In this document: positions 14,495-31,828 of the stretch, one piece after another
Layout of the letters: each line of letters opens with the position of its first letter
How positions within the stretch are numbered: position 1 is the stretch's first letter
Origin: Paucisalibacillus globulus
GTDB lineage: Bacteria > Bacillota > Bacilli > Bacillales > Amphibacillaceae
NCBI RefSeq assembly: GCF_900184735.1
Contig: NZ_LT855386.1
Span: 353,338-394,886, forward strand
DNA: 41,549 bases
Direction: 5' to 3'
Program-made: the position numbers and the translations under genes
Notes under the pieces: generated by a model
Seen by the model: the letters and a program-made list of their open reading frames with translations, nothing else
What the model was told of the DNA's origin: nothing
Database searches by the model: none

Positions 14495-14530
14495 AAAAGC
14501 AAAACAATCACGAAACGATTGTTTTGCTTT
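14495..14530 (-). terminator. Terminator of the S13 carboxypeptidase gene
   Basis: AAAAGCAAAACAATC / GATTGTTTTGCTTTT with a 7-base loop. It overlaps the stop codon of the minus-strand gene and is followed on that strand by a T-rich stretch. Confidence 0.85.
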
Positions 14531-15905
14531 TTTCAGAGATAATGTACTCAACTAACTTGTCGATAATATCTGGTCCATCTTCTTCATCTAGGAGATTATT
14601 CAACATAATGGAGAAAATGAGCTCTTCCCCTTCCTTTGTCTTTAAATATCCCGACAAAGTACTAACCCCCATAATCGTTCCAGTTTTCGCATGTACCTCT
14701 AACCCATACATTCGGTCATTCAACGTACCTCCTATCATCCGGTCCTCATTACCAGCAACAGGAAGAGAACGATAGAAGCTATTAAACCAAGGCTCTTCTT
14801 GAATACGGAAAAGAAATTTCGAGATTTCATTTGGTTGAATTAGTGTAACATGTGAAATGCCAGAGCCATCACGGATTAGTAGCTTACTAGTATCTACTCC
14901 TAATGTATTTAGCGTCTCTTCCATTACGTTTAATCCACAATCCCAACTTCCTTCTCCCTTTACAACCTTACCTAATTCTTTAACAATCATTTCCCCATGA
15001 CCGTTATTGCTCAACTTCATAAAAGGGACACTTAAATCTGCTAAAGATATCGAATCACGTACATATAGAAGACTGGCTTGTTTAGGTGTAACTCCTCTAA
15101 TTGCTGTGCCACTGGTACTAATCCCTAACTTCTTTAAAGCGTTCTGGAATAACTCTATTGCATAGTCAGTTGGTTCCCAAACCGCCACCCATTCTTTTAG
15201 ACTTTCAGAGTTAAGTGAAATACTTCCCTCTACTACAACATCATTATTCCCGTGAAGTCGTATTACCGTTATTTCCGACTCACCCTCCTCGACATGGGAT
15301 TCTGTAGTGATTGCCCTATTTATAATGTTTATATAATTGGTCAACGGTGTTAATGAGATGGTAGGTTTTTCACCTGGTTTATCTCCGGGAGAGATGGTAA
15401 GCATTACTGTGCCTGTATCATAATCTTGATTAGGTGAAGCTGTTAAAGCAGATACCTGTGCACCATAATAATAATGTTCATCATTCCAATTCAAGTCCTG
15501 TGACAATCGAACATCATCATACCATGTATCATCACCAATTATATCCCCCTGGATCTCTAGAATTCCTTTTTCCTTTATCACTTGAGCAAGATATTCAAAA
15601 TCTTGTTGTAACAAGGTTGGATCTCCTTTGCCTTTTAAATAGAGATTTCCAATTAATATATGGTCTTTTATTTCACCATCAATCCATAACTCAGTTGAGA
15701 AGGTATAGTTTTCCCCTAATACTGCAAATCCTGTAGCACAAGAGAAAATCTTCATATTTGATGCTGGATGCAGTCGAGTATCTCCCAAATGTTCATATAA
15801 TAATTCGCCTGTTTTTCTTGTTCGTATACTTATTCCAGCAAGTGCCCCCTGAAGATTAGGTTCACTTTTCATAAAATGATGAAATTTCCTCCATTTTTCA
15901 TCCAT
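14508..15905 (-). CDS. S13-family D-alanyl-D-alanine carboxypeptidase/endopeptidase (PBP4/DacB type)
   Basis: 465 residues. Penicillin-binding motifs are present in order: S49-x-x-K52 in HPASNMKIF, SNN in MKLSNNGHGE, and KTG in VHAKTGTIMG. The inserted domain between the first two motifs is typical of S13 enzymes, which remove the terminal D-Ala or cut cross-links in peptidoglycan. Unusually there is no signal peptide: the sequence starts MDEKWRKFHHFMKSEPN and goes straight into the enzyme. An in-frame TAA lies six codons upstream of the ATG, with AAGGAG between, so the start is secure. Either it acts inside the cell, is exported by another route, or works after lysis. Confidence 0.9.
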   Translation of the reverse strand: MDEKWRKFHHFMKSEPNLQGALAGISIRTRKTGELLYEHLGDTRLHPASNMKIFSCATGFAVLGENYTFSTELWIDGEIKDHILIGNLYLKGKGDPTLLQQDFEYLAQVIKEKGILEIQGDIIGDDTWYDDVRLSQDLNWNDEHYYYGAQVSALTASPNQDYDTGTVMLTISPGDKPGEKPTISLTPLTNYINIINRAITTESHVEEGESEITVIRLHGNNDVVVEGSISLNSESLKEWVAVWEPTDYAIELFQNALKKLGISTSGTAIRGVTPKQASLLYVRDSISLADLSVPFMKLSNNGHGEMIVKELGKVVKGEGSWDCGLNVMEETLNTLGVDTSKLLIRDGSGISHVTLIQPNEISKFLFRIQEEPWFNSFYRSLPVAGNEDRMIGGTLNDRMYGLEVHAKTGTIMGVSTLSGYLKTKEGEELIFSIMLNNLLDEEDGPDIIDKLVEYIISEKSKTIVS

Positions 15906-16129
15906 AAAGTTTACTCCTTTTTATTTGTTTTTCATTTTCCCTATTGATTCTTCCTACCTAGGTACATATTTTTAGCCTGATTATCGAGGTTTTCCAGGAA
16001 AACTTTCCTCTTTTTCTACAAAAATATATAATAAACTACCTATTTTCCCATTTTGTTGAATATTGTCATTATTATATAGTATTCTAACTTATTTTTGCTT
16101 ATAATAAAACCCAGAGAGGTGAGGGAAAT

Positions 16130-17392
16130 ATGGGAATAGATTTAGGACAAGCAATTAAGATTAATCGTTTACGAGCAAATATGACACAAGCAGATCTCGC
16201 AAATGGAATTATCTCTGTATCCTATTTATCCAAGATAGAAAATGGTTCAGCTGAGCCCCCAAACGAAGTCATCGAACTACTAGGTGAAAAGCTTAAATTA
16301 AATACAGATTACTCAGAGGATGATATTACAGATCAATCAATAATACAGTGGTTTAAGCATTTGTTACATTATGAGGTTGACGATTCAGTAATACTCTACA
16401 ACAAAATCAAAAGTAATATCTCAAATGTATTCGATAATCAATTGTTGTCTCTAATTGAAATACATAAGTTGTATTACTATGTATTAATAAATAATTTTAC
16501 AGAGGCTGATGGCCTTATTGTTTCACTACATAAAAGCTCTAATAAATTTACAGAAACTGAAAAGTACTATTTCTATAAGTTTGTTGCATACTACCATTAT
16601 TCAAAACTGGCATATCGAAAAGCCCTAGATTTCTATCAAAAGGCAGAAAAATATTGTAAATCTGATATTTTTCACAAACCGGAAGAAATTGCTGATTTAT
16701 TCTATATGATAGCTTGTTCAGCAAGTAAAAGTAGACAGACACATTTATCATTACTATATTCTATTCGTGCTTTAGAATATTACCAATCTAATTATGACTT
16801 AGTAAAGTCAGCAAATTGTCATATACTACTTGGAATTTCTTACCGAAGAATTAATGATATTGAAAAGGCAAAAGAGAGTTATAATTATGCAATTAAAATA
16901 GCAAAGAAACTTGAAAATAACTATATATTAAATTTATGTCATCAAAATTTTGGTAAAGTACTTTCTTCCATAGGGGATTCTGAAGAGGCAATTAATCAGT
17001 ATCTTATGAGTTATGAGTTGAGGAAAAATAGTTCAATCCATAAAAAACTGACAACTATTTCGAGTTTAATGCAAGAATACTATTCTAAAGGCGACATGGA
17101 CAACGCAAGGATTTGGATGGAATTAGGAATAGATCTTTCAAATGGACTTAAACCATCTGAATCAATTCATGTTTATGAATTTAAAGTTTATAAATATTTA
17201 ATTAACGGCCTAGATACATCATTTGAATCACTAATTACAGATCACATAATTCCTTTCTTTAACGAAAAACAATTACACTACGAGGAATCAAAGTATATTA
17301 AGCTCATAGCAAAATATTATTACAGTAATCGAAAATATAAGTTAGCAGCAACTTACTATAAAAAGTTGGGTAATATTTACTTTTATCCTTGA
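16130..17392 (+). CDS. RRNPP-type quorum-sensing regulator, HTH plus TPR (NprR-like)
   Basis: 420 residues. Residues ~6-60 form an Xre-type helix-turn-helix (IKINRLRANMTQADLA...SYLSKIENG). The rest is all-helical tetratricopeptide repeats, clearest at about 175-200, 250-275 and 300-320 (A...Y..A..YA or GD.EEAI.QY patterns). The size matches NprR (about 420) rather than PlcR (about 285). RRNPP regulators bind a re-imported peptide in the TPR groove and change DNA binding or Spo0F interaction. A 46-codon secreted peptide ORF begins 15 bases after the stop, the expected cognate precursor. The start ATG follows GAGAGGTGAGGG. Target genes are unknown; a secreted subtilase at 29.5 kb is a candidate only by analogy to NprR. 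Confidence 0.85.
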   Translation: MGIDLGQAIKINRLRANMTQADLANGIISVSYLSKIENGSAEPPNEVIELLGEKLKLNTDYSEDDITDQSIIQWFKHLLHYEVDDSVILYNKIKSNISNVFDNQLLSLIEIHKLYYYVLINNFTEADGLIVSLHKSSNKFTETEKYYFYKFVAYYHYSKLAYRKALDFYQKAEKYCKSDIFHKPEEIADLFYMIACSASKSRQTHLSLLYSIRALEYYQSNYDLVKSANCHILLGISYRRINDIEKAKESYNYAIKIAKKLENNYILNLCHQNFGKVLSSIGDSEEAINQYLMSYELRKNSSIHKKLTTISSLMQEYYSKGDMDNARIWMELGIDLSNGLKPSESIHVYEFKVYKYLINGLDTSFESLITDHIIPFFNEKQLHYEESKYIKLIAKYYYSNRKYKLAATYYKKLGNIYFYP

Positions 17393-17407
17393 AAGGAGGT
17401 GAAATAG

Positions 17408-17548
17408 ATGAAAAGAATCTTTATTTTAGCACTTATTTCTTTTGCTATCATATTCTCAAGCGTTTCAGCTAGCAGTTTGTTTTCTTACCAAGGATATGAA
17501 TTAGCAAATAATGAGGAACCATACCCTTGGCCAAAAACAAAAAAATAA
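17408..17548 (+). CDS. 46-residue secreted peptide precursor, likely cognate signal of the RRNPP regulator
   Basis: MKRIFILALISFAIIFSSVS begins a clear Sec signal peptide (basic start, hydrophobic core, Ser/Ala-rich cleavage region near residues 20-23). The short remainder is SLFSYQGYELANN and EEPYPWPKTKK. The gene has a perfect AAAGGAGGTGA seven bases before its ATG and starts 15 bases after the regulator stop. Size, signal peptide and position match PapR, NprX and Phr precursors. The mature peptide would be cut from the C-terminal half; the Pro/aromatic stretch EPYPWP is my best guess for its core. I recognise no known signal sequence in it. Confidence 0.75.
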   Translation: MKRIFILALISFAIIFSSVSASSLFSYQGYELANNEEPYPWPKTKK

Positions 17549-17624
17549 CCCTCTAGATTAAAGATGTGTATTTTTCCTTGTCTTCTACAAAAACGTATTA
17601 CTCAAGGACATTTTAAGGTAGCCT

Positions 17625-19235
17625 TCAAACATCCTCGGTTTCATTCTTCTGAATGTCATACTCTATTGATAAGAAAGGCAAGGAAAATATCCACATTTTG
17701 TGTTTTGCTATTAATTTTCCATCGGTACTTTCCGTTACTATAAACTCCTCTTCCAACGGTAATTTCATTACATATTTTTTTACTACCAGATAAATTCCTG
17801 AATCCAAATTATCTAAAGAATGTCTTTTACTTGTTAGGCAAAGACTGTTACCACTTTGGCTCAGATTTAACACACCCATCATCGAAGCACCTGGTAACGG
17901 CAAAGCAATATTCATATATCTTTTTCCATTTGTTAAATGCTCCGAATACAATGCAACAAATACAGTTTCTCCTTTTATCTTACGGATCCACGCTCGTACA
18001 TTTCTTCTGCCATCGATGGTATCGTCGATTGGAATAATAGCCCCGGTCATTTCCTCTCTTCTTCTTAGTAGTGGTAGATTTATTTGTTTCATATACTTAC
18101 TAAACAGTTTATAAATGGCTGCATAAGGAATAAACCACTTACTCCAATTCACCTTCGCAAAAAGTCTATATGAATTCGTATTTTCATAGAAATCTACTAT
18201 TGTTGGTATAGTCTCAGGAATGATGGATTGGTAATGTTTCATCTCTCCCACTAATCCTTTGTACGGAGTGGCTCCGATTTTCCCTTGCAATACCCTTTCT
18301 CCGACTACCTTTTGTCCTCTAATTTTACTTATAGGAAACTTAGGTTTCCTTTCTTTAGAAGCTGGCATCTCTATCATCCAACCAGTAATACCAATTAATC
18401 CAAAGAATATTGTATTTAACACACCATGTGTAGCAATCATCTGATCGATACCAATAGAGTATAGACTAGAATAATTACCAAATGCATAAGCTAACGAAAA
18501 CAAAATAGTTATTCCTAATGAACCAAATGAAATTATGATGAATACTCGCTGTACCTTATTAGTAATTGGAGCTTTTATACTCAAAAAAACACAAGAATAA
18601 ATACCAAAAATATATAAGATAACAGATAATACTTCTAATAAAACCGAAAAAGTAATCCCTAACGCAACCATCCAAGGTGAAAGAATAATAATGAATCCAG
18701 TTACCAAATACCATTTTCCTATCTTCTTAAGTAATCTTCCCAAAAGGCCAAAGAATACTAGAAATAAAAAGCCAGAGTAATGGAAATGTATACTTGTGAG
18801 CCATGTTATGATAGTTGAAAATCCTGTGTCAATTTTAGAGTGGTATGCGAAAAACCACATTCCACCAACCGATAAGTATATTAACCCAAGGTCAATTAAT
18901 ATTTCTTCAAAATGAACAAATCCCCTATTTATAAATCGCTTTACTCCCAATAACGCAACCATACATGTAAACAATAGATAGAGAAATGCTAGAGAAGTAA
19001 TAACAAATCCATGAACAAATGGAATTAAGAATACCGAAGTAGAAGCAATTAATGAATAATAAGGTAATAGACTCTCTAGTTTACCATGAGTTTCTTTTGT
19101 TAATAGATAGAGTACTAATGGAACAAAGATCAACTGTGAAACTGTTAATAAAGCGATAAACCATTCCGTTCTTTGAAACAGTATAGTCACTATCATAAAA
19201 ATAATATTTACATAAAGAACGTTACGAAAGTTCAT
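17625..19235 (-). CDS. yndJ: YndJ-like membrane protein
   Basis: 536 residues. The N-terminal ~290 residues hold about nine membrane helices. The C-terminal ~230 residues are soluble, with blocks SYRLFAKVNWSKWFIPYAA and GRRNVRAWIRKIKGETVFV. This architecture and its neighbours (DoxX-like fusion, DUF4166) match the yndG-yndH-yndJ cluster of B. subtilis; function unknown. The start is the ATG at 19235, overlapping the previous gene by 14 bases, with AAGGGGTG about 12 bases upstream. A frame extending to 19340 lies wholly inside the previous gene and is rejected. Last gene of the operon; no convincing terminator is seen after it. Confidence 0.75.
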   Translation of the reverse strand: MNFRNVLYVNIIFMIVTILFQRTEWFIALLTVSQLIFVPLVLYLLTKETHGKLESLLPYYSLIASTSVFLIPFVHGFVITSLAFLYLLFTCMVALLGVKRFINRGFVHFEEILIDLGLIYLSVGGMWFFAYHSKIDTGFSTIITWLTSIHFHYSGFLFLVFFGLLGRLLKKIGKWYLVTGFIIILSPWMVALGITFSVLLEVLSVILYIFGIYSCVFLSIKAPITNKVQRVFIIISFGSLGITILFSLAYAFGNYSSLYSIGIDQMIATHGVLNTIFFGLIGITGWMIEMPASKERKPKFPISKIRGQKVVGERVLQGKIGATPYKGLVGEMKHYQSIIPETIPTIVDFYENTNSYRLFAKVNWSKWFIPYAAIYKLFSKYMKQINLPLLRRREEMTGAIIPIDDTIDGRRNVRAWIRKIKGETVFVALYSEHLTNGKRYMNIALPLPGASMMGVLNLSQSGNSLCLTSKRHSLDNLDSGIYLVVKKYVMKLPLEEEFIVTESTDGKLIAKHKMWIFSLPFLSIEYDIQKNETEDV

Positions 19236-20832: not shown

Positions 20833-22395
20833 TTAATTACTATATTTCTTTTTCTTTTCTAACAGTTCTTGAAATTCTTGTTCTAAATTTGGATCCGGAT
20901 TTAAGCTTAATCTACTTAATACTTCTGTTAGCCTTGCTTCAATAACCATTAGCTCTTGTTCTGTTTCATCTATTACTTTAGGCTGAAAGTTTTGGTATGC
21001 ATGATAATCCCCTTCTATTAATTTCATCCTCTGATTCTCTATTGTTATAATTTTTGTTGCTGTATTTTCTATAAATCTTCTATCATGGGAGACAAAAATA
21101 ACGGTTCCTTTATATTCCCTAATCAAAGACTCTAATGCTTCTACTGCATCAATATCCAAATAATTGGTCGGCTCATCCAAAACAATTGTATTAATATTGC
21201 TTAAGAAAATCTTAGCAAAAGCGACTTTGACCCTTTCTCCGCCACTAAGTACTTCTACTTTCTTATATACATCGTCTCGAATAAAATGCAGTCGAGCCAA
21301 TACTGTTCTTACTAATGACATCTCTTGAGTAGATGTTTCCAAGACATTATCTATGATAGTCTTGTCTCGCTCTAAGATATCTAAGTTCTGACTGAAGTAC
21401 CCTATCTTAACAGCCGGTGATACCTCAATGTCTTTCTCCGTTGAAATGAGTTTTTTGATAAAAGTGGTCTTTCCAACTCCATTGTTTCCAATAATGGCCA
21501 CTTTATCTCCAGCATGAATATATAATTTAGCTTTCTCCCATAGCAATCGACTTCCTATCTTTCCTTCCATTTCCTCCACACGAATTATTGGCTTATTACC
21601 GAGTAACGTTTCATTGACTATATCCATAACTAATGGAGGATCTTCCTTTACTTTCTCAACCTTTTCTAGTTTTTCTAACCGGGTTTTTATAGCGTTAGCT
21701 GCAGTTTCAAGTTTTTTCTGCTTTTTAGCAAAATATGGTTTACCACCTTTAAGATTTGCATCAGAATCACTCTTTTTTTTGGGATTTTTGGTTGCTCTTG
21801 CAGCCTTTTTCTTTTTCAGTTCTAAGGCGTGATTTAGTTGCCTCTTAATGGATAAATATTGATTATATTCCCTTTGTTGCTTTTCTATTTCCATTTCTTT
21901 TTGGTCGCGATATGACGTATAATTACCAATATACGCAGTCACCTGCCCGTCTTTCACTTCCCATATTTTATTACAAAGTGAATCTAAAAAAGCACGGTCG
22001 TGAGATACAATCACTACAGCACCAGTCCAACGTTTTAACTGACTTTCTATTTTTGCTATATGGGCTTTATCTAAATTCGTTGTTGGTTCATCAGCAAATA
22101 GAATATCCGCCTTACTAGCGATTGCTTCATTAATATACTGTTGGGTAATTTCCCCACCACTTTTTGTTGTATTAGTATCTTTTAATTGTGGTAGTAGCTT
22201 CAAACTAGCTACAGTTTGGACAGATCCAGTAAAATTTTCTTCCTTACCTGATAGAATATTTATTAAAGAAGTTTTTCCACTTCCATTTTTGCCGACTACA
22301 CCTATAAAGTCACCTTTCTGTATTTGTAGGTGCTGAGCTTTTAATATTTCCATCCCATTGACTTCATATATTATATCTTGAGCTTCTAATAGCAT
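20833..22395 (-). CDS. ABC-F ribosome-protection-like ATPase (Vga/VmlR type)
   Basis: 520 residues with two ATP-binding cassettes and no membrane domain. First cassette: Walker A VVGKNGSGKTSL, signature SGGE, Walker B ILFADEPTT. Second: IIGNNGVGKTTF, LSGGERVKVAFA, TIVLDEPTNYLD. The linker between them is long and lysine-rich (KKKKAARATKNPKKKS), as in antibiotic-resistance ABC-F proteins that push drugs off the ribosome; the compact first cassette resembles Vga/VmlR. The start is the ATG at 22395 with GGGGTG upstream; an in-frame TTG at 22416 is less likely. A long leader with an attenuator precedes it, which supports a drug-inducible resistance role. The exact drug class cannot be read from sequence alone. 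Confidence 0.82.
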   Translation of the reverse strand: MLLEAQDIIYEVNGMEILKAQHLQIQKGDFIGVVGKNGSGKTSLINILSGKEENFTGSVQTVASLKLLPQLKDTNTTKSGGEITQQYINEAIASKADILFADEPTTNLDKAHIAKIESQLKRWTGAVVIVSHDRAFLDSLCNKIWEVKDGQVTAYIGNYTSYRDQKEMEIEKQQREYNQYLSIKRQLNHALELKKKKAARATKNPKKKSDSDANLKGGKPYFAKKQKKLETAANAIKTRLEKLEKVEKVKEDPPLVMDIVNETLLGNKPIIRVEEMEGKIGSRLLWEKAKLYIHAGDKVAIIGNNGVGKTTFIKKLISTEKDIEVSPAVKIGYFSQNLDILERDKTIIDNVLETSTQEMSLVRTVLARLHFIRDDVYKKVEVLSGGERVKVAFAKIFLSNINTIVLDEPTNYLDIDAVEALESLIREYKGTVIFVSHDRRFIENTATKIITIENQRMKLIEGDYHAYQNFQPKVIDETEQELMVIEARLTEVLSRLSLNPDPNLEQEFQELLEKKKKYSN

Positions 22396-22419
22396 GTTTT
22401 CACCCCATTTGTTCAAAGA

Positions 22420-29538: not shown

Positions 29539-30741
29539 TTAATAACGAACAGAAGCATTTACATTAATTAGACCGTGCTCAACTGTTCGACCTACACCAT
29601 TCATGTAAACAGCAGTATTTTCAATTGCTGCTCTAACCTGTGCATTATTTTTTCCTTGACCAGTAAGTAATGCCGCTTGACCTGCTACATAAGGAGAAGC
29701 CATGGATGTACCAGACATATAAACATAACTGTTATTTGGATAAGTAGAGGCAATGTCTACACCTGGGGCCATTACATCAACCCAAGTACCCCAGTTTGAG
29801 AAATTAGCTTTACGATTATTCGAATCAACCGCACCTACAGCAATAACATTTTCATAAGAAGCAGGTTCGAAAGTTGTTCTAACACCATCATTACCGGCAG
29901 CAGCTACCACCACAGCACCACGGTTCCAAGCGTAATTAACAGCATCTTCTAATGTCTGTGTATCACAGTTACAACCCAATGATAAATTTATAACCTCTGC
30001 ACCTGCATCTGCTGCGTAAATAATTCCATCTGCGATATCAGCCAATGAACCACTTCCTTGTGCATCCAATACACGAACCGCCAATACTTTTGTGTTTGGA
30101 GCCATACCAGCTATTCCAGTAGCATTGTTCGTTTCAGCAGCAGCAATTCCTGCTACGTGTGTACCGTGACCATTTTGATCTTGTGGATACCAGTCATTTT
30201 GAACAAAGTCATAACCAAGAACTACTTTCCCATCTAAATCAGGGTGATTATAGTCAACTCCTGTATCAAGTACGGCAATTTCTTGACTTGAGCTACCACG
30301 TGTAACATCCCAGGCATGGTCTGCATCGGTATTAAATAATCCGTATTGATAACTAGGGCTAAAATACGTATCATTTGGTGACCAAGTTGCATTAAGTACA
30401 TAGTTTGGCTCGGCGTACTCTACATTAGGATTATTACTTAAAGCCTTAACAACTGCATCTACATTGCCCACCTCAAGCACTAAAAAAGGTGATTTTACTG
30501 CGTCTACATCTGCTTTCACCTTAACATTAGCATTGTTAAGGACTTTATTTTGTTGCGAGACAGAAACCTTATCTTTAAACTTAACAATCACTTCACCTTT
30601 TACCTGTTCAACTTTAGCTGCTGATACCGATACATTTGTAACCTTTTCAAGCTCCCCCTCATCAGCAGCGGCATTCCCAACAATTGGGAAAATCAATGTA
30701 AAAACAACGACAATCAAACCAGCTAGCCAAGACTTCTTCAT
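29539..30741 (-). CDS. Secreted subtilisin-like serine protease (S8)
   Basis: 400 residues. Signal peptide about 1-25, an I9-type inhibitor propeptide about 45-116 (VIVKFKDKVSVSQQNK to EYAEPNYVL), then the mature enzyme. The catalytic triad is D159 (AVLDTGVDYNHPDLDG), H192 (NGHGTHVAGIA) and S346 (MSGTSMASPYVAG), with oxyanion N284 (AAAGND). A CNC pair (C257, C259) is unusual. It is probably an extracellular feeding protease, and perhaps also the kind of enzyme that matures signal peptides. AGGAGGAG precedes the ATG. Single gene beside repeat copy 2. Confidence 0.95.
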   Translation of the reverse strand: MKKSWLAGLIVVVFTLIFPIVGNAAADEGELEKVTNVSVSAAKVEQVKGEVIVKFKDKVSVSQQNKVLNNANVKVKADVDAVKSPFLVLEVGNVDAVVKALSNNPNVEYAEPNYVLNATWSPNDTYFSPSYQYGLFNTDADHAWDVTRGSSSQEIAVLDTGVDYNHPDLDGKVVLGYDFVQNDWYPQDQNGHGTHVAGIAAAETNNATGIAGMAPNTKVLAVRVLDAQGSGSLADIADGIIYAADAGAEVINLSLGCNCDTQTLEDAVNYAWNRGAVVVAAAGNDGVRTTFEPASYENVIAVGAVDSNNRKANFSNWGTWVDVMAPGVDIASTYPNNSYVYMSGTSMASPYVAGQAALLTGQGKNNAQVRAAIENTAVYMNGVGRTVEHGLINVNASVRY

Positions 30742-31009: not shown

Positions 31010-31828
31010 ATGAACTTCACAAAAACTTACATAAAATTACTAAAAACAACTATTTATTGTGAACACAGGATTCAGGAAGAAAAACCAATAATATTTCTCA
31101 TACATGGCTTTGTAGCTTCATCCTATACTTTCAATCGTCTTAAACCACTTCTAGCAAAAGACTTTTCTGTAATTGCAATTGATTTACCCGGATTTGGTAA
31201 GAGTGAAAAATCAACTACTTTCACCTATTCCTTCGACAACTATGCCAATTTAGTATTGGCATGCCTGGATCATTATCAAATAAAAGATGCTTATGTTGCG
31301 GGTCATTCAATGGGAGGACAGATTGCCTTAAACACAGCATTGAAGGCACCGGAGAGAGTGAAAAAATTAATATTATTCTGCAGCTCAGGATATCTACCAA
31401 GAGCCAAGAACTACCTTATATATAGCTCGTATCTCCCTTTCTTTCATTTAATTGCAAAACGAAAGATAAATTCTCAGAGTGTTGTAAGGAATCTCAAAAA
31501 CGTATTTTATGACCATTCCTATATTACAGAAGACCAAATTGAGGAATATGGGAGGCCACTTAAAGACAAGAACTTTCCAAGATCGCTAGTACGGTTGCTT
31601 AGGCATCGCGAGGGGGATTTATATAGTGAACAATTAAAACAAATCAAGACACCTACTTTACTACTTTGGGGCAAGGAAGATAAAGTTGTCCCCCTACCAA
31701 TTGGGAAAAAACTTGCTAAAGACTTACCAAATGCAAAATTAATTTCGTATGAACAAGCTGGTCACTTGGTAACAGAGGAAAAAGCCCAACAACTATATAA
31801 AGATATCCAAACCTTTACCTTAACCTAA
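31010..31828 (+). CDS. yugF: Alpha/beta hydrolase, YugF-like
   Basis: 272 residues, closely following B. subtilis YugF in length and motifs: oxyanion loop LIHGFVASSYTF, nucleophile elbow AGHSMGGQIAL (Ser), acid in LLWGKEDKVVPL (Asp), and His in YEQAGHLVTEE. The block RLLRHREGDL is also YugF-like. Cytoplasmic; substrate unknown. The ATG at 31010 has GAGGTGA 13 bases upstream, a rather long spacing, but the earlier GTG runs into a stop. A terminator follows the gene. Confidence 0.85.
   Translation: MNFTKTYIKLLKTTIYCEHRIQEEKPIIFLIHGFVASSYTFNRLKPLLAKDFSVIAIDLPGFGKSEKSTTFTYSFDNYANLVLACLDHYQIKDAYVAGHSMGGQIALNTALKAPERVKKLILFCSSGYLPRAKNYLIYSSYLPFFHLIAKRKINSQSVVRNLKNVFYDHSYITEDQIEEYGRPLKDKNFPRSLVRLLRHREGDLYSEQLKQIKTPTLLLWGKEDKVVPLPIGKKLAKDLPNAKLISYEQAGHLVTEEKAQQLYKDIQTFTLT

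Follow-up and report, generated by a model that had tools for sequence, protein, structure and literature searches.

A probable RRNPPA-type quorum-sensing cassette with an NprR-like receptor in a bacterium related to Ornithinibacillus

Introduction

In the Rap-Phr systems the propeptide gene lies downstream of the receptor gene, and PlcR-PapR likewise combines an HTH-TPR regulator with an adjacent propeptide, PlcR being a short receptor of about 285 aa with five TPRs. Receptors of the RRNPPA superfamily were defined here by a superhelix of 5–9 TPRs, usually with an N-terminal HTH. In NprR-NprX (Bacillus thuringiensis/B. cereus group), a receptor built from an HTH and TPRs is followed directly by its propeptide gene. 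PMC4970707 gives the NprX octapeptide as SSKPDIVG, and it assigns R126 of NprR to peptide binding, Y165–R343 to the closed form, F225 to the tetramer and D107, Y118, E188 and Y223 to contacts with Spo0F. NprR has been reported in 21 genera, and Virgibacillus is listed with NprR (PMC9765709). The RRNPP_detector survey describes 34 high-confidence clusters and, in Priestia koreensis FS-1, NprR-NprX systems carried on plasmids; its cluster-naming rule calls for at least 30% identity to the reference NprR, taken for the best cluster member, with more than 80% mutual coverage (PMC10075063). A term search of the main text of that survey did not find Ornithinibacillus, Oceanobacillus or Virgibacillus.

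We describe here a receptor–propeptide pair from a bacterium related to Ornithinibacillus (genome of 3.92 Mb), in a stretch of 41,549 nt that was analysed as a whole and is referred to below as the window (Table 1). Neither a description of the pair nor the strings "EPYPWP" and that of the operator were found among the literature matches listed; the pair is new in itself, and the kind of system is already known.

Table 1. Features of the receptor–propeptide locus, in window positions; the two cassette genes are given from the ATG to the last base of the stop codon
Feature	Position	Strand	Evidence
S13 D-Ala-D-Ala carboxypeptidase family gene, divergent neighbour	14508..15905	-	PF02113
Probable operator AGGAAAACTTTCCT, AGGAAA-NN-TTTCCT palindrome	15996..16009	.	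Invariant in 7/7 orthologues
Promoter-like TTGTTG-N16-TATAGT, weak -35	16053..16080	+	Inferred from second conserved block near gene
Receptor/transcription factor, 420 aa	16130..17392	+	HTH_3 + TPR_12; phmmer; Foldseek
Ribosome-binding site AAGGAGGTGA of propeptide gene	17393..17402	+	Sequence; AAAGG(A/G)GGTGA in 7/7 orthologues
Propeptide gene, 46 aa	17408..17548	+	In 7/7 close orthologues; purifying selection
Sec-type signal of propeptide, probable cleavage after SVSA (residue 21)	17408..17470	+	Inspection
EEPYPWP, probable pheromone core	17513..17533	+	Codon constraint; shared P-x-P core; fusion-model pLDDT
Propeptide stretch around EEPYPWP for candidate 6- to 11-residue peptides: NNEEPYPWPKTKK			
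Propeptide portion whose fragments are candidate extracellular peptides: SSLFSYQGYELANNEEPYPWPKTKK			

Results

The receptor and its relation to NprR

The 420-residue HTH-TPR regulator of the sequence-only reading was recovered with exact coordinates, and both of its domains scored over the Pfam cut-offs, HTH_3 at residues 9–61 (E 6.9e-11) and TPR_12 at residues 210–260 (E 2e-8). In the predicted structure (mean pLDDT 84.7, pTM 0.75) the HTH is N-terminal and the TPR superhelix extends over residues ~68–417. A search with phmmer matched the receptor to RapF, NprR, RapJ and RapH, and the top Foldseek match of the model was apo NprR (5dbk_A, E 2.1e-11, TMt 0.84), followed by Rap proteins and NprR-NprX; no AimR chain was present among the 50 best structural matches listed. 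PlcR was a far lower match (E 6.9e-6, TMt 0.53), and its chain 3u3w has 280 residues versus 420 aa here. The window receptor shares with Rap-Phr the TPR superhelix and the groove asparagine column (N in RapF), whereas Rap proteins lack the HTH that it carries. Taken together, Pfam, the helical model and the structural matches to NprR and Rap proteins show an N-terminal HTH with a TPR superhelix; the receptor belongs to the RRNPPA superfamily and is built like NprR without being an NprR.

An HTH followed by a Rap/NprR-type superhelix in about 420 aa is the build of NprR, the closest solved structure, and to this extent the description of the protein as NprR-sized stands. However, identity to the NprR TPR fragment is only 19.4% over 340 aligned columns, at which level some columns may be misplaced. 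In this alignment W79, D107, Y223 and N275 of NprR correspond to W74, D102, Y222 and N273, the last column having N in 56/64 homologues; N275 is a peptide contact in NprR. Six other NprR residues are not kept, namely R126, Y165, R343 and F225, replaced by N121, L160, P342 and L224, and Y118 and E188, so that two of the four Spo0F-contact residues (D102 and Y222) are present. In the quick tree, NprR and RapF fell outside the clade of the window receptor, on long branches that make their placement unsure. Given the 19% identity and the unkept residues, we call the receptor NprR-like rather than NprR. The identity is below the 30% naming threshold, but as the rule applies to the best match of a cluster with 80% mutual coverage (PMC10075063), this value is compatible with membership of the NprR cluster.

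A receptor encoded on a plasmid of P. koreensis FS-1 (NZ_CP061869.1) is 31.5% identical over 95% of the window receptor. Its propeptide gene lies 11 nt downstream and the product ends in EEEFPEPTVAQVLI, of the acidic-PxP type seen in the window. The two pairs differ in that the Priestia pair is plasmid-borne, has other neighbours and, by eye, has only the half-site GTAGGAAA upstream, without the palindrome. This gene is likely to be one of the NprR-NprX systems reported for this strain, and the ending of its propeptide suggests that such systems are probably already included in the NprR cluster of that survey, as far as its text describes it (PMC10075063). A phage home for the window pair found no support: a search of 50,697 phage records with an E threshold of 1e-5 gave no match to the receptor.

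The propeptide gene

The 46-codon ORF was found, as described in the sequence-only reading, 15 nt after the receptor stop codon at exactly the positions claimed. The strong ribosome-binding site that it had pointed out was also confirmed, adjoining the receptor stop codon and ending 5 nt 5' of the propeptide ATG. Inspection of the N-terminus likewise agreed with a Sec signal: MKR is followed by a hydrophobic stretch and by SVSA|SS, which resembles a Sec/SPI site. A small adjoining gene with a secretion signal, as judged by inspection, and a short C-terminal pheromone region is the arrangement of RRNPPA systems.

The receptor was searched for in 101, 11 and 159 genomes (overlapping sets), and the homologue set comprised 65 distinct receptors from the best loci, the total number of matches being larger. 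Seven of these were taken as close orthologues (L001, the window's own, to L007; 63–100% identity), and an orthologue was present in 7/11 genomes of the genus. One outcome proposed as a refutation of the pair was that relatives would have the regulator but not the small ORF; instead, the ORF is carried by all seven close orthologues and by 52/65 best-match homologues (50 by the first rule and two more by a laxer look). This conservation, together with NprR as the closest solved structure, supports the original interpretation as a quorum-sensing pair. The propeptides of the orthologues end in EEPYPWPKTKK (2), EEPYPWPKK (2), EEPDPFIKK, EEPYPGWTKD and EEHPDPWTKK.

The propeptide is under purifying selection. 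In the six pairwise comparisons among the four closest copies (L001–L004), pN/pS was 0.11–0.26 for the whole ORF and 0.04–0.08 after the signal, the first 20 residues being the less constrained part (0.23–0.61). The last 11–13 aligned codons (NNEEPYPWP..) had no nonsynonymous changes versus 2–5 synonymous changes per pair, and an indel near the end (PKTKK/PKK) leaves L003 and L004 without two residues.

A recognisable adjacent propeptide was absent from 13/65 best-match homologues. Nine receptors of this kind (L012, L014–L018, L020, L060 and L067) form a branch of the quick tree (SH-aLRT 94), and they are candidates for a listening-only role.

No terminator was called by the scan after the propeptide gene, although the sequence there contains a long imperfect inverted repeat (17549–17720, arms 17572–17584 and 17675–17687). 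The right arm falls within the 3'-terminal part of a convergent yndJ-like ORF, and the region folds better than shuffles (z -2.7).

The pheromone core

A comparison of propeptides across species gave the shared core E-(E/H)-P-x-P, which is EEPYPWP in the window; the earlier guess of EPYPWP came close to it. The pattern [EHQYGLK]P[DGYKEQ][PQ] occurred after residue 20 in 28/52 propeptides, versus a mean of 2.9 and a maximum of 9 in shuffled tails, and E or H preceded P in 46/52 (shuffled mean 19.7, maximum 30). Because these patterns were picked with the sequences in view, and because many rows are related to one another, the shuffles describe how strong the signal is and do not amount to a blind test. 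P-D is common to the NprX octapeptide and many propeptides of this set, but the core of the window propeptide differs from that of NprX. A second, EPSIL-like class has 16 members, the receptors of which form one branch (SH-aLRT 99, quick tree). The core unit is tandemly repeated in the propeptides of L022, L024, L057, L066 (EEHPDPSEEEHPEPSEEEHPDPS) and L068 and in a plasmid homologue, and these repeats help to delimit the likely mature peptide. Up to six copies were seen, with HRDAEPGVLS five times in L022 (2779–3093) and HESHPDP six times in L024; EE(L/F)PPPLAP repeats occur in L222:2763–3176.

The reading frames of receptor and propeptide coincide in the window, so the two could be modelled as a single chain with AlphaFold. 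In this fusion, the block 461–470 (NEEPYPWPKT) had a mean pLDDT of 71 versus 43 and 41 in the two preceding blocks and 34 after it; the signal-peptide helix was also raised (61 at 431–440). In the fusion from L034 (40% identical, core KEPDPYP), the tail was below 50 at 444–466 and 480–483 and not under 50 at 467–479 (DNEKEPDPYPDTD), with the signal region again raised (71 at 431–440). The raised confidence at the core is suggestive, being consistent with recognition of the core and with a putative docking, but conserved alignment columns by themselves may raise pLDDT at the core, and the comparison covers two fusions, both with native tails.

The operator and the divergent neighbour

Alignment of the upstream regions showed AGGAAA-NN-TTTCCT unchanged in the seven orthologues, inside a drifted stretch and at -131 to -134 from the receptor start codon, and in the window this is the only match with at most one mismatch. 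Allowing at most two mismatches within 300 nt upstream, the palindrome was found in 25/58 further homologues versus 2, 3 and 3/58 in three control regions, and in 16/42 versus 1, 3 and 2 when the EPSIL class (16) was left out, Markov shuffles having an expectation of 1.7. The contrast was weak at three mismatches (39/58 versus 17–22 in controls). An exact palindrome is present in L013, a homologue of 41% identity, and most of these receptors have SYLSKIE or a close variant of it as their likely recognition helix, which fits a common operator. The palindrome is thus a candidate site that the receptor probably binds. The promoter-like element between it and the gene was not among the consensus-scan sites.

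The S13 gene is divergent in 7/7 orthologous loci and shares the intergenic region with the receptor gene; it may also share the operator. The palindrome was found upstream of the S13 gene in 7/7 genus genomes with a receptor orthologue and in 0/4 without (at most two mismatches in the 320 nt upstream of the best homologue; related genomes rather than seven independent events), suggesting that the operator travels with the cassette. The regulon, left unknown in the sequence-only reading, can accordingly be narrowed to a candidate operator, conserved in 7/7 orthologues, and likely autoregulation.

Candidate targets and paralogues

Exact sites numbered 3–6 per genus genome with the orthologue and 1–3 without it, with 0–2 for the reversed control, and many operator-like sites fall within genes. 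In the window's genome, at most one mismatch gave 43 places (32 of them inside genes) versus 33 for the reversed control, and this weak excess does not support a large regulon, so a broad regulon defined by the palindrome was rejected there. The five exact sites comprised the cassette's own, one intergenic and three inside genes; the 38 one-mismatch places were divided between 29 inside genes and nine between genes, four of which are upstream of a well-sized gene start (L142, L156, L172 and L176). Only the cassette's own site is convincing in this genome. The other exact intergenic palindrome (L089:2497–2510; G000:C1:66496–66509) lies beside genes that by eye are FtsK-like and replication-like, in a probable mobile element.

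Further targets of the receptor seem to be few and to differ between species. In G005, an exact site (2502 in L097) is located about 120–160 nt 5' of a lasso-peptide gene set (L097:2502–5001), composed of a precursor ORF whose lasso-leader match exceeds the cut-off, a B2 protein that likewise exceeds its cut-off (NF033537), and a protein of the asparagine-synthase family that stays below the one for lasso cyclases; the position of the site suggests possible quorum control of the lasso peptide. An exact operator lies at -130 of a subtilisin gene in G006 (L210), a site precedes an FAD oxidoreductase gene in G001 and G005 (L179 and L184), and in G007 a site precedes two small proteins with signal-like N-termini (L101), beside the paralogue L035. 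These intergenic sites may be functional. As conserved targets, S8 proteases were rejected, with an exact site at 1/11 loci and one more with one mismatch (L220), as were the FAD oxidoreductases, with an exact site at 2/11 loci and two more with two mismatches (L182 and L187); neither site is conserved in the window's genome. We also rejected two recurrent sites that are kept between genomes, one inside a gene for 286–288 aa (L095, L098, L110 and L117), which looks like coding constraint, and one 17–18 nt after the end of a gene for 666–679 aa (L100, L111 and L114), which looks like a terminator.

The homologue of the G006 subtilisin in the window (29539–30741) is a subtilisin-family protease gene that has a fervidolysin-like prodomain and runs divergently to a gene for an alpha/beta hydrolase (31010–31828); no site with at most two mismatches was found upstream of the protease gene. 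Positions 20833–22416 encode a ribosomal-protection-type ABC-F protein, which scores over the cut-off of the general model NF000355 but, at 697 of 725 bits, falls slightly short of that for the Vga family.

G001 and G007 each carry the orthologue and a 42% identical paralogue (L034 and L035) whose pheromone core is different but whose operator is near-identical (one mismatch), which might allow cross-talk at the DNA. In L106 (G003:C28:28500–36500), a stretch of 8 kb contains three homologous receptors; propeptides were seen for two of them, and these differ. The middle receptor has an exact operator 114 nt upstream of its ORF.

Discussion

The reading that we prefer, with a probability of about 0.85, is that the pair is a self-contained RRNPPA-type quorum-sensing cassette, in which the peptide-loaded receptor acts on the palindrome of its own promoter. 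It is directly supported by the architecture, conservation, purifying selection, predicted fold and operator conservation, and we infer export, processing, binding and activation as follows. The propeptide would be exported by Sec and cut by signal peptidase, and trimming outside the cell would yield a short peptide containing EEPYPWP. This peptide would be re-imported by an oligopeptide permease (seven SBP_bac_5 oligopeptide-binding proteins in the genome are over the Pfam cut-off) and would bind the receptor in its TPR groove. In this loaded state, the receptor would act through its HTH on AGGAAA-NN-TTTCCT upstream of its own gene, a site centred about -84 from an inferred start of transcription. 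Most likely it would activate the receptor–propeptide operon in a positive feedback; the divergent S13 gene might also be activated, together with a few species-specific targets.

For a frame of only 46 codons, in a region with other short ORFs, a chance origin from intergenic sequence has to be considered, but the pN/pS values of the whole ORF, the absence of nonsynonymous changes in its last codons and the retention of ribosome-binding site and start in all seven orthologues make this practically negligible. Being short and secreted, with a variable signal region, the product might instead have another job, bacteriocin-like or in immunity, and merely share an operon with the regulator. We consider this very improbable, since the branches of the receptor tree track the propeptide classes, with seven label changes versus a shuffled mean of 29.5 and none of 200 shuffles as low (near-copies contribute to this). 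Moreover, the core and its repeats resemble those of pheromone propeptides, and the flanking genes encode an S13 peptidase and a YndJ-like protein rather than modification or immunity functions.

Two further possibilities accept the pair and differ in what the receptor does. It might repress through the palindrome, with the peptide relieving repression: the site is placed between two divergent genes, from where an HTH protein can repress, and the peptide of AimR is described in PMC6536502 as inhibiting DNA binding by AimR. However, the operator does not cover the conserved -35-like box but has its centre ~50 bp farther upstream, and the box is a poor match to the consensus in a promoter that is itself inferred; an operator upstream of a poor -35 box is a better fit for an activator, so repression seems to us the less likely mode, although the most credible of the alternatives. 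The peptide-free receptor might also be a Spo0F phosphatase that delays sporulation, given that NprR is described as having both functions (PMC4970707) and that D102 and Y222 match two of the four Spo0F contacts. Nevertheless, the positions of Y118 and E188 are taken by K113 and I187 (phmmer places K183 at E188; neither is Glu), and the D107 column has D in only 26/64 homologues, so such a bifunctional protein is unlikely.

Returning to the peptide-activated cassette, we suggest tentatively, at somewhat less than even odds, that the window pair represents an unnamed NprR-like branch within this bacterial family, with its own acidic/His-P-x-P pheromone code, an operator of its own and a regulon that is switchable and species-specific. 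If this is true, paralogues within a single cell would use AGGAAA-NN-TTTCCT and its variants in common; in G005 this operator would control a lasso-peptide cluster and in G006 an extracellular subtilisin, and a related propeptide-less branch would listen without a signal of its own. The analysis names a specific candidate peptide and a specific DNA site of 14 bp, and so opens the whole circuit to direct testing. The pair also shows that NprR-like signalling has diversified far beyond the Bacillus cereus group; there are hints that paralogous circuits within a single cell have a common operator and separate pheromones.
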